Assembly (NCBI GenBank): GCA_020850695.1
Contig: JADZEF010000080.1
Location: forward strand, 1 to 33,580
Direction of reading: 5' to 3'
Source: Planctomycetaceae bacterium
GTDB taxonomy: Bacteria > Planctomycetota > Planctomycetia > Planctomycetales > Planctomycetaceae
Length of the DNA stretch: 33,580 nt
Shown: piece after piece, positions 30,267 to 33,580 of the stretch
Layout: each line of letters opens with the position of its first letter
Position numbering within the stretch: position 1 is the first letter of the stretch
Made by a program: the position numbers and the translations under genes
The notes under the pieces: model-generated
What the model was told of the DNA's origin: nothing
Databases searched by the model: none
The model's input: only the letters and a program-made list of their open reading frames with translations

Positions 30267-31328
30267 ATGCCGACTGCTCTCCAAACAATCCGACGCACGA
30301 TTGTCGCTCGCCGGAATCGACGAGAGAGAGCCGGCTGGCCGATGTGGGCGATCCTTCCGGCCATTCTCACCCTCTCCAGTATGAGCTCAGGCCGACCGCT
30401 ATTGGCCGATGAGCCGATCGCGGCCGAACCCGTGCGCGGCGCGGTTCCACGGGCAGCCTTCGAAGAGCGGGTCTTTGTTCTTCCGCCGATCCGGAACATC
30501 GACGACGCCATGGACGTGGAAGAGCTCGGCGCGGGTGGGGATGTCGAAGACCTGGTGGAACTGAATCAGGAAATGGGGTTCCAGTTCAGCCCCGATGACG
30601 TCGAGATGGCCGTGATCGGGGATGTCAGCGATCGGTCGCAGTTCCGGAACCGGCAGGAGGAGGAGATCGCACGCCAGATTCAGCGGATCGAATCGGCCTT
30701 TCCCCTTCCGGGACCGATGAGGCGAAAGCTGGAAATGGCGGCGCGAGGGGACGTGGCCCGGTTCTACGAAGACCTCGACCGGTTGAAGAGGGATGTCGGC
30801 ACGCAACGACTGCAGATCGACGATCTCCAGAAGTTCCAGCAGCAGTGCATGGAGCTGAACGCACGCGCTGCAGGAAGCCTGCACGGCAGCGATTCGCTCT
30901 TCCAGAAGACGTTCCGCAGCATTCTCGATCCCGATCTGAAGAATCGCCTCGAGATCGCGGCCCGCAAGGCGGCGCGCAAGGAACACACCGAGCGCATCGA
31001 CAAGCTGTTCGAGGAGATCGACCGGGTGATGTCGCTCAAGGCGGCACAACGCGAAAAACTTCATGCCCTGTTCACCAGCCGCATCAAGCCACCGAAGGTC
31101 GACGGACTCGACATCTTCGAAACGGCATCGCTTCAGCGGAACCGTCCGCAGCAAGGGTTTCCGACCGAGTTCCTGCAGTCTCTGGCCGCAATCCCCGACG
31201 ACGAGTACCAGAAGATCGTGACCGAGCGACAATGGACCACGCTCCATACTCTCATCGCCCGTTATCGGAAGCAGGCGCAGCGCCAGCAAATACAACAAAT
31301 ACAAATTGAAGCGGAGGCCATCCCGTGA
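30267..31328 (+). CDS. Secreted helical protein, paralogue A of a three-gene operon
   Basis: 353 residues; ATG 30267 has CGGAG 6 bases upstream. A long basic start (RRTIVARRNRRERAGW) leads to a hydrophobic stretch (MWAILPAILTLSSMSS), so export is likely. The mature part is mainly helical. Two landmarks recur in the third gene: RRKLEMAARGDVARFYEDLD (152-171) and SLHGSDSLFQKTF (204-216), followed by MSLKAAQREKLHALFTSRIK (255-274). The last resembles the L-T-x-x-Q-R motif of Spy/CpxP-type periplasmic chaperones, but the resemblance is short. Its stop overlaps the next start (GTGA). No family recognised; the operon looks planctomycete-specific to me. Confidence 0.8.
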   Translation: MPTALQTIRRTIVARRNRRERAGWPMWAILPAILTLSSMSSGRPLLADEPIAAEPVRGAVPRAAFEERVFVLPPIRNIDDAMDVEELGAGGDVEDLVELNQEMGFQFSPDDVEMAVIGDVSDRSQFRNRQEEEIARQIQRIESAFPLPGPMRRKLEMAARGDVARFYEDLDRLKRDVGTQRLQIDDLQKFQQQCMELNARAAGSLHGSDSLFQKTFRSILDPDLKNRLEIAARKAARKEHTERIDKLFEEIDRVMSLKAAQREKLHALFTSRIKPPKVDGLDIFETASLQRNRPQQGFPTEFLQSLAAIPDDEYQKIVTERQWTTLHTLIARYRKQAQRQQIQQIQIEAEAIP

Positions 31329-32287
31329 TTCCGGGAACGAACATGTCGCCGGATCCGTCCATGAGAAGTCCGATTCCCGCAGAGTTTTCCCGGAGCCCCT
31401 CCGTGATGACCGAAATATTTCGCCCGCCGCGGCGCCGCACAACCCGGCTGGTTCGTCCTCTGTGCATCGTGGTCGTGATGGCGCTTGCGAGCCTCGTCCC
31501 TTCGGCGGCCCGCGCCGAGGACGGTTTCTTCGGCAGGGCGCTGAAGGGAGTTGCGAAGGCGGTCGAAAAGCTTGTCGAAGTCGAGGAACCGCCGGTCGCT
31601 CGTGAGGCTGTCATGCTGGCCTTCCCCGGCAACGCCAACAACGTCGACCGCTTCACGCCGCTGCTCAAGCAGCTGCTGAAGATCGAGATGGCTTACCTCG
31701 TGAAAGTGTGTCATCCGAACGACGAGCAGAAGGCCCTCCTCCGCAAGCAGGGGGATGCCGCGGTCGCCGACATCGCGAAAAAAATGATGGCCGCCCAGAA
31801 CGGCCGTCGCGGAAACGCGGGCTTCCCCGACGCCCGCAAGCTGATGACCGACGCCCTGCACAAGGCCCTGGTGGAAGCGAAATCGGACAAGGCAACGGAC
31901 TACGCGCAGGAAATCGCCGCCCGCGAAGCGGCCCGCAAGGAAGCCGGAGTGGCCATGATGACGGCCCAGATCGACCGCACCCTATTCCTCGCTCCCGACC
32001 AGCACGTCGCCATGGCGAAGGTCATCGAGAAGAACTGGAAGGACGAATGGAGCCGCAACACACAGGCGTTTCTCTACATCGACTACCTGCCGACGCCGGA
32101 CGTCTCGGTGCTCTCCGGAGCAATGAACAACCAGCAGCAGGCGGTGTGGAAGGCGCGGCCGAACTACGGGACGATCTCGTTCGGCTGGGAAGGCGATCTC
32201 GGACTCAACAACGGCTTCGTCGATGCCGGCGTCGACGAGGAGGAGGCCATGGAAGCCGCGCCCGCCGAAGGAGCCGCCGCTCCATGA
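31325..32287 (+). CDS. Secreted helical protein, paralogue B of the operon
   Basis: 320 residues from GTG 31325, which overlaps the stop of gene A (GTGA) and has GGAGG 7 bases upstream, a clear case of translational coupling. ATG 31343, 31361 and 31406 are alternatives; the last would place RPPRRRTTRLVRPLCIVVVM at the very start as a normal signal peptide (cleaved near SAARAED). The body is helical: NDEQKALLRKQGDAAVADIA (132-151) lines up with the KLEMAARGDV segment of gene A, and RTLFLAPDQHVAMAKVIEKN (218-237) with its SLKAAQREKL segment. The SLHG-SLF block seen in A and C is missing. The Ala/Glu-rich C-terminus is probably disordered. Confidence 0.78.
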   Translation: MIPGTNMSPDPSMRSPIPAEFSRSPSVMTEIFRPPRRRTTRLVRPLCIVVVMALASLVPSAARAEDGFFGRALKGVAKAVEKLVEVEEPPVAREAVMLAFPGNANNVDRFTPLLKQLLKIEMAYLVKVCHPNDEQKALLRKQGDAAVADIAKKMMAAQNGRRGNAGFPDARKLMTDALHKALVEAKSDKATDYAQEIAAREAARKEAGVAMMTAQIDRTLFLAPDQHVAMAKVIEKNWKDEWSRNTQAFLYIDYLPTPDVSVLSGAMNNQQQAVWKARPNYGTISFGWEGDLGLNNGFVDAGVDEEEAMEAAPAEGAAAP

Positions 32288-33117
32288 AACCGCACCGTTC
32301 CCTCCTGTTGCTCTTCGCGACGACAGCCCTCTTCGCCGTCCCGCCAATGGCTTCGGCCCTTGATGAAGTCATCGCCGTCGATGCCGCCGTCGAGGCCGAA
32401 GGCGAAGTCGTCGAGAACTTCGTCGCCGAAGTGAACGTCCAGAACATCGATCAATGGGTCTTCCGCAACCAGACGATGGCCCAGGCCCGCACCATGGCGC
32501 AGAACTCGCTCCAGGTGCAGGTCGATTTCGTCAACCTCGCCGGTCCGCTGACCGAAATTCAGCGTCTCAAGTTGATGCTGGCGGGACAGGGAGACATCAA
32601 CCGCTTCTTCGAGGACTACGAGATCCTGCGGGCCTCGTTGCCAAAGGGGCGGGTCGGCCAGAATGACTGGCAGCAGATGTGGCAGCGGATCCAGCCGATC
32701 CAGTTGCGGCAGCAGGCCGGCCTGCATGGTCCGGGGTCGCTCTTTCAGCGGACGGTGAAGGCGCTGCTGACGAGCGAGCAGAAGGCGAAATTCGAGGTCC
32801 TCGACAAGGAGCGCCGCACGAAGCACTACCAGGCGACGATTCGTGTCGCCCTGACGACGATTGAAACGAAAGTTCCCCTGACGGTGGCGCAGCGGAAGCG
32901 GCTCATCGAACTGCTGACGACGAAAACCAGGCCGCCCGAGCGCGTGCTCCCGCAGTACGGAGACTTCTACTACGTCATGAGCCAGCTGGCCGCGCTCCCC
33001 GAGGAGGACCTCAAGCCGATCTTCGAACCCCGCGAATGGAAGCCGTTCAGCACGATGGTGATGCCCTACAAGAACAACCAGATCATGCGCCAGTTCGAGG
33101 CTGCCGAAGTCGAGTGA
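32284..33117 (+). CDS. Secreted helical protein, paralogue C of the operon
   Basis: 277 residues; ATG 32284 overlaps the stop of gene B (ATGA). Signal peptide LLLLFATTALFAVPPMASA. RLKLMLAGQGDINRFFEDYE (94-113), AGLHGPGSLFQRTV (145-158) and PLTVAQRKRLIELL (198-211) match gene A in order and spacing, and the C-terminal LAALPEEDLKPIFEPREWKP matches LAAIPDDEYQKIVTERQWTT of A. These matches make A and C clear paralogues by eye. The three products probably act together outside the cytoplasm, perhaps as a complex. The stop is followed by a REP-like double hairpin. Confidence 0.82.
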   Translation: MKPHRSLLLLFATTALFAVPPMASALDEVIAVDAAVEAEGEVVENFVAEVNVQNIDQWVFRNQTMAQARTMAQNSLQVQVDFVNLAGPLTEIQRLKLMLAGQGDINRFFEDYEILRASLPKGRVGQNDWQQMWQRIQPIQLRQQAGLHGPGSLFQRTVKALLTSEQKAKFEVLDKERRTKHYQATIRVALTTIETKVPLTVAQRKRLIELLTTKTRPPERVLPQYGDFYYVMSQLAALPEEDLKPIFEPREWKPFSTMVMPYKNNQIMRQFEAAEVE

Positions 33118-33146
33118 CGAGTCAGGCGACGAGGGAAAGTCGAAAC

Positions 33147-33218
33147 GTAGCACGGGCCCTCATGCCCGTGCGTCCTTTGGGCAACCTTTTCACGCACGGG
33201 CATGAGGGCCCGTGCCAC
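33147..33218. repeat. REP-like double hairpin (family 2, copy 2)
   Basis: Hairpins 33147-33172 and 33193-33218 in inverted orientation. The stem is GCACGGGC/GCCCGTGC and the flank GTAGCACGGGC matches the copy at 9258, with CCCTCA replacing CACTCA. It lies 29 bases after the operon's third gene and 20 bases before the next start, so it may end or attenuate the transcript. Confidence 0.88.
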
Positions 33219-33238
33219 GTCATCGTCCGGTGCCGCTT

Positions 33239-33580
33239 ATGGTTCGACATCTGCCGCTTCTGACCACGATCCTGATTGTTCTCAGCTCCGGCCCAGCGGA
33301 ACTTCATGCCCAGGCTCTCGACATCCGCACGGGGGACGCCGTCCCGCGCGATGTCCGCGAGATGTACGATCGCGGCCTGCAATACCTCGTGAAGTCGCAG
33401 ACCGAAGCGGGCGACTGGCGAGACGGCCAGGGGGGAGCCGGCGTCACGGGAATGGCGCTGATGTGCTTCCTGGCCTCCGGGGAGGATCCCAACTTCGGCC
33501 TCTACTCAAGCAATATCCGCCGCGCCGTGCGGAGCATCATCAGTCAGCAATCCGCCGAGACCGGCTTCTTCCCCAACAGC
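33239..33580 (+). CDS. Prenyltransferase/squalene-cyclase-repeat protein, 3' end cut off
   Basis: 114 residues visible, open to the right edge, which is why a stop-bounded search misses it. Signal peptide MVRHLPLLTTILIVLSSGPA, cleaved near LHAQA. The mature part starts an alpha-alpha barrel repeat: VREMYDRGLQYLVKSQTEAG, then DWRDGQGGAGVTGMALMCFL and a second helix pair ending SIISQQSAETGFF. This G-x-W / G-V-T-G-M-A-L pattern is that of the terpenoid cyclase / protein prenyltransferase fold, common in secreted planctomycete proteins where cyclase activity is unproven. ATG 33239 has no Shine-Dalgarno sequence; GTG 33230 is a possible earlier start. Confidence 0.85.
   Translation, partial: MVRHLPLLTTILIVLSSGPAELHAQALDIRTGDAVPRDVREMYDRGLQYLVKSQTEAGDWRDGQGGAGVTGMALMCFLASGEDPNFGLYSSNIRRAVRSIISQQSAETGFFPNS

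Follow-up and report, generated by a model that had tools for sequence, protein, structure and literature searches.

T-alpha and T-beta, paired exported helical proteins of Planctomycetia, very probably belong to a MoxR/Bat-type gene system that includes an apparent selenoprotein

The DNA analyzed here (the window) is the entire 33,580-nucleotide contig JADZEF010000080.1 (C81) of a Planctomycetaceae bacterium (assembly GCA_020850695.1; 8.6 Mb, 440 contigs). Three neighboring genes near its end, A, B and C, encode exported helical proteins of one family, termed T, and are followed by a gene for an exported cyclase-fold (alpha/alpha-barrel) protein. Gene content and order in related genomes make it very likely that T belongs to a MoxR/Bat-type gene system. 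In these relatives, the cluster runs in the order MoxR, DUF58, a BatA-like protein, a second protein of the metal ion-dependent adhesion site (MIDAS) type, a large membrane protein (c3), T-alpha, one or more T-beta, the cyclase-fold protein, and a large protein ending in a thioredoxin domain (c4).

The T family and its alpha and beta clades

Profile comparison places A, B and C as genuine paralogues within a single exported, all-helical family, as the original prediction had proposed from the window. The likeness between A and C is far beyond chance (BLASTP E = 1e-27, 27% identity over 225 amino acids [aa]), and pairwise BLASTP showed no similarity of B to A or to C. The series of landmark motifs said to be shared by the three proteins stands only in part, as the R-F-x-E-D portion of the first landmark is missing from B, whose kinship is visible by profiles only. 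Genes were called in 41 loci of related genomes and in the window, and a hidden Markov model (HMM) profile was iterated separately from each protein. The A, B and C seeds all converged on the same 119 proteins (42 loci), with the next nonmember at an E value of 0.24, and iteration from the fourth gene gave a distinct family with 42 members. Alignment of the beta (C-type) with the alpha (B-type) profile by hhalign gave a probability of 99 and an E value of 3.6e-18. Profile similarity is significant among all three proteins.

No model in Pfam or NCBIfam covers the family, and searches of both with A, B and C gave chance-level matches only. A scan of genome contigs with C alone recovered no relatives, and a diverse alignment of betas gave no searchable stretch, so the search relied on the conserved cyclase-fold protein as bait. 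Even sampling of the phylum found just one other genome with the family; the true distribution was revealed by a sample of Planctomycetia.

The tree of the 119 proteins contains two deep clades, alpha and beta, both with 99% support in the Shimodaira-Hasegawa-like approximate likelihood ratio test (SH-aLRT). B falls in the alpha clade, as does the first T gene of most loci; C and the later T genes belong to the beta clade. Of the T genes in the G449 cluster, the first groups with B inside the alpha clade (39-41% identity), and the last is the nearest relative of C (40% identity). A lies on a long branch with the beta clade, its position being unsure, and is probably an extra, diverged T-beta copy. 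Alpha precedes beta in nearly all loci, and beta copies number up to five or six. As the window has the order beta-like, alpha, beta, gene order and phylogeny indicate that the ancestral and conserved unit is alpha then beta and that the trio is a local elaboration, namely, the pair plus an extra copy. The proposal that three diverged copies are kept together as a unit consequently gives way to one alpha with one or more betas. In locus L137, a 760-aa T gene lies downstream of c4, outside the usual operon position, and combines a beta-type T domain with a region that by eye is DUF1559-like.

The fixed alpha-then-beta order, the frequent 4-base overlap of the two genes, and gene fusions favor a hetero-oligomer, which alpha and beta probably form. 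The fusions, found in at least two lineages, are supporting evidence and the best indication that both proteins may work together. In one fusion (L134_2, 679 aa), encoded beside a cyclase-fold gene, an alpha domain (E = 1.7e-57) precedes a beta domain (E = 2.8e-75). Two others from a single genus of another lineage (L061_5 at L061:8305-10074, 590 aa, and L178_7, 597 aa) share this alpha-beta layout and likewise adjoin the cyclase-fold gene. In a further clade, from one group of genera (L166, L167, L170, and L173), a protein of ~510 aa with two T domains adjoins MoxR, the c3-cyclase-c4 genes are divergently transcribed from it, and the usual alpha and beta genes are missing.

AlphaFold2 models of C (mean predicted local distance difference test score [pLDDT], 88.6) and B (mean pLDDT, 77.7) are almost all helical and all helical, respectively. 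Foldseek found no match to either model in the PDB at an E value of ≤0.001. The best VIA-align Z score for C was 7.4, within the range expected of unrelated helical proteins; the matches include the Bacteroides outer-membrane/sugar-binding proteins 3g6i and 3kdw (~170 residues, root mean square deviation of >7). The T proteins could alternatively be stand-alone periplasmic holdase chaperones of the Spy/CpxP type, binding unfolded proteins, in a cluster that is only coregulated. They share with Spy/CpxP/ZraP proteins their export, their helical character, and L-T-x-x-Q-like motifs, which start several of the helices, but they are longer, and the Pfam LTXXQ model (PF07813) was reached by 1 of 33 betas, at an E value of 0.1, and by none of 25 alphas. 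Together with the Foldseek result, this makes the holdase explanation improbable, and the hint of Spy/CpxP chaperones in the original prediction is without sequence support.

Conserved gene cluster and the candidate selenoprotein c3

The core of the cluster is of a known kind. MoxR lies directly upstream of DUF58 in relatives (L162:6836-7864 and L164:7112-8176; AAA_3 E values of 1e-62 and 2e-61), and the DUF58 protein matches VWA_2 at 1e-9. The BatA-like protein has the N-terminal domain with two transmembrane segments (PF07584, 1e-16; TIGR02226, 4.5e-20). A DxSxS motif is visible in this protein and in the second MIDAS-type protein, which also has weak GATase1-like similarity. c3 has ~1090 aa and three predicted transmembrane segments near its N terminus, and c4 (~940 aa) ends in a ResA/TlpA-like thioredoxin domain (ResA-like, 6e-28). 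Among the 42 loci, c3 is present in 39, the cyclase-fold protein in 40, the thioredoxin protein in 37, the second MIDAS protein in 36, and BatA in 35. The window genes had been thought to correspond to no described system, a view that does not survive their placement, in relatives, inside a MoxR/DUF58/BatA cluster. The MoxR system escaped the first reading because the cluster is split among contigs in the window genome.

T genes occur together with the cyclase-fold gene in genera and families far apart from one another; recurrence in distant genera was what the original prediction required for support. A scan of a species-level collection with the cyclase-fold profile found 383 relatives. The 80 best loci are from Planctomycetota by title, with one labeled just "bacterium"; they include Singulisphaera, Aquisphaera, Bythopirellula, Adhaeretor, Roseiconus, and Schlesneria-like genomes, and most have the c3-T-alpha-T-beta-cyclase-c4 arrangement. 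Scanning of 149 Planctomycetia genomes with a completeness of ≥95% for T and for the cyclase-fold orthologue found T in 43 (a few matches being weak), a close cyclase-fold orthologue in 44, and both in 43. The remaining genomes have distant cyclase-like paralogues only. Further distant cyclase-fold paralogues (E values of about 1e-35 to 1e-55) occur in 147 of the 149 genomes.

The near-perfect tracking of T by the cyclase-fold protein, which is also the most conserved member of the cluster (66% mean column identity, >100 invariant columns, and an invariant DADTS), could point to a different center of the system, in which this protein would act as a terpenoid or lipid enzyme whose substrate or product is carried or presented by the T proteins. 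Resemblance to squalene-hopene cyclase and lanosterol synthase is limited to QW-like repeats and a weak sequence match, with scores below model cutoffs (18.1 bits versus 322.7 for TIGR01787 and 19.3 versus 26.1 for PF13243). Unlike those enzymes, the planctomycete protein (~350 aa) is exported, consists of a single short barrel, and has the invariant DADTS in place of the canonical DxDD. The conserved cluster also holds no prenyl or lipid genes, and a cyclase-centered system is very improbable.

Several observations weigh against a role of the T proteins as subunits of a MoxR/Bat-type machine. Approximately 70% of the sampled Planctomycetia genomes lack the system. In the window genome its parts sit on separate contigs, with c3 on C264 without T neighbors, BatA and the second MIDAS protein on C182, and the T, cyclase-fold, and c4 genes on C81/C15; the DUF58 and MoxR genes of the cluster were not located in this genome. 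No BatD or tetratricopeptide repeat (TPR) gene was found among the recurrent neighbors in flanks searched to ~10 kb, and one cluster (G392/L174) has no T gene between the c3 and cyclase-fold genes. Finally, a conserved cysteine present in 41 of 44 alphas, B included, occurs in only half of the betas and is absent from A and C of the window, and a general alpha-beta disulfide was dropped for this reason. Two loci, L174 (G392) and L175 (G400), have the cyclase-fold gene and c4 with no recognizable T gene; in L175 an unidentified 1294-aa protein occupies the place of c3 and T.

c3 is a candidate selenoprotein. It is split by one in-frame stop in 29 loci, and in 29 of 29 the stop is TGA at an invariant Cys; some of the 29 represent the same genome twice, and 23 sequences are distinct. 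The Cys form reads GxC-PGxK...SLPPS and the stop form GGT-stop-PGxK...SLPPS. An example is L052:4925-8203, where c3 is read through one TGA (also L063, L055, and L048); annotation would split such genes into proteins of ~885 and ~195 aa. The downstream bases GGCAGTTTGCC are present in all 23 distinct stop forms versus 1 of 47 Cys forms, and this conserved stretch spans codons free to vary (AGT and TTG). These bases form a hairpin resembling a selenocysteine insertion sequence (SECIS), with a 5-bp stem and a GUU loop, 22 nucleotides from the UGA; its closing pair shows compensatory changes (C-G, U-G, U-A, and G-C), and its dimensions are within published limits for bacterial SECIS elements (PMC13188914). 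A search of the region against Rfam gave no match to a SECIS family.

The phylogenetic distribution of the two forms also points to selenocysteine (Sec). At least six Sec/Cys state changes occur on the c3 tree, all forced by well-supported branches. A strong tRNA-Sec (≥65 bits) was found in 7 of 9 genomes with the Sec form versus 5 of 29 with the Cys form (Fisher P = 0.002); the Sec-form genomes without a strong match, G470 and G558, are both fragmented assemblies. On this evidence it is highly probable that the stop form of c3 encodes selenocysteine. c3 shares with known prokaryotic selenoproteins a UGA at a Cys position and a downstream hairpin within bacterial SECIS constraints. None of the 119 prokaryotic selenoprotein families inventoried in PMC13188914 fits this ~1090-aa membrane protein when compared by description, and neither form matches any NCBIfam model. 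It is therefore likely to represent an undescribed selenoprotein family; the S9 Table of PMC4807772, with candidates from two algal planctomycetes, may already name it. The c3 of the window genome has the Cys form. This genome nevertheless has a strong tRNA-Sec (G000:C238:2-95) and may thus have other selenoproteins.

Genes and repeat element of the window

The features of the T locus are listed in Table 1. The three open reading frames (ORFs), their order, and their strand are as originally described, and the ATGA overlap of B and C (32284-32287) is firm. The GTGA overlap of A and B (31325-31328) is present and probable rather than certain, because two starts compete for B. The GTG start has a well-placed GGAGG upstream; with the in-frame ATG start, the signal peptide is N-terminal and no overlap with A remains. 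Export signals are clear by eye in all four proteins, and hydrophobic leader segments are present in relatives (40 of 44 alphas, 61 of 75 betas, and 41 of 42 cyclase-fold proteins). The fourth gene does encode an exported cyclase-fold protein, with the correction that the window holds its 5′ part alone, as the contig end cuts the gene. Contig C15 completes it (L161:3-989), with the first ~284 bases matching the window end, and there the gene for the thioredoxin-ending protein follows the cyclase-fold stop with a 4-base overlap.

Table 1. Coordinates of genes and repeat element at the T locus of the window
Feature	Position	Strand	Basis or remark
Gene A, exported helical T-family protein, 353 aa	30267..31328	+	ORF; BLASTP to C; iterated HMM
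Gene B, T-alpha, 320 aa (GTG 31325) or 293 aa (ATG 31406)	31325..32287	+	ORF; alpha-clade placement
Gene C, T-beta, 277 aa	32284..33117	+	ORF; ATGA overlap with B; AlphaFold2
Cyclase-fold (alpha/alpha-barrel) gene, 5′ part, exported	33212..33580	+	Start GTG 33212 or ATG 33239
REP-like long hairpin, between C and cyclase-fold gene	33145..33220	.	Dispersed repeat

A genuine hairpin lies between C and the fourth gene (29-nucleotide arms, 97% complementary; RNA z = −8.8) and, as suggested earlier, resembles repetitive extragenic palindromic (REP) elements, with ~136 half-copies genome-wide versus none for a reversed control. The dispersed inverted repeat unit is GCACGGGC(A/C)CTCATGCCCGTGC, often in inverted pairs ~22 nucleotides apart. 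The hairpin is a dispersed REP-like element and no private feature of the locus.

Possible function and relation to known systems

On balance, T-alpha and T-beta appear to be dedicated periplasmic subunits of a Planctomycetia-specific envelope machine of the MoxR/Bat type. As in Bat operons and other MoxR-proper/VWA clusters, a MoxR ATPase (AAA_3), DUF58, the N-terminal domain of BatA, and several proteins with DxSxS follow the same order at an inner membrane. The cluster differs from these in that BatD and TPR (BatC/E) genes were not seen and in the addition of c3 in its Cys or Sec form, T-alpha and T-beta, the cyclase-fold protein, and a large thioredoxin protein of the TlpA type. NorQ/NorD and RavA/ViaA likewise combine a MoxR ATPase with a VWA partner, are ATP driven, and have a proposed shared mechanism (PMC9976466 and PMC10585395), but they are two-gene pairs, whereas the planctomycete cluster has a large exported arm attached.

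The main rival explanation is that the T proteins are clients of the MoxR machine, that is, a complex acted on as substrate, for instance a component of the envelope or surface layer. MoxR/VWA clusters often adjoin the complex that is matured, as with NorQD and cNOR (PMC9976466), and T-beta is fast evolving, with up to six-fold expansion, in contrast to the well-conserved cyclase-fold protein and c3. Copy number is, however, uninformative on direction, and the T genes are internal to the cluster, flanked by c3 on one side and the cyclase-fold/thioredoxin genes on the other. A client role for T is rather unlikely.

If T-alpha and T-beta are subunits of the machine, MoxR and the three DxSxS (MIDAS) proteins would together make up an inner-membrane module powered by ATP, with MoxR/DUF58 in the cytoplasm and the other MIDAS proteins in the membrane, driving an exported arm. 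c3 would connect this module to the periplasm, where the T heteromer and the cyclase-fold barrel would bind or scaffold client envelope proteins, and the thioredoxin domain and the c3 thiol or selenol would handle redox. In net terms, such a machine could mature or repair envelope proteins, plausibly during oxidative stress. This mechanism for the exported arm is drawn from analogy with MoxR/VWA pairs, which are ATP-driven remodeling chaperones (PMC9976466), and with the influence of the Bat operon on oxidative-stress survival (PMC11834572). A complete trans-envelope MoxR/VWA machine, with an arm of alpha-beta heteromer and cyclase-fold barrel, selenoprotein c3 as the linker, and ATP hydrolysis coupled to periplasmic selenol/thiol chemistry, is plausible, with the balance tipping slightly toward doubt. 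The client-maturation or redox role of the system is more tentative still and amounts to a guess.

The literature search found no paper joining MoxR, DUF58, and Planctomycetes, and the main text of the Planctopirus essential-gene paper makes no mention of MoxR or cyclase. The MoxR/Bat core is known; relative to the literature searched, the T family, the cyclase-fold/thioredoxin pairing, and the apparent selenoprotein are new. A conserved, testable context, in the form of a MoxR/Bat-type system bearing an extensive exported arm, is thereby available for several planctomycete protein families of unknown function, in bacteria whose cell envelope is still little understood. They are joined by an apparent new selenoprotein family that is normally annotated as two hypothetical proteins. 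If the selenocysteine reading of c3 is true, it would become testable whether a MoxR/VWA machine is directly linked to redox chemistry in the envelope.

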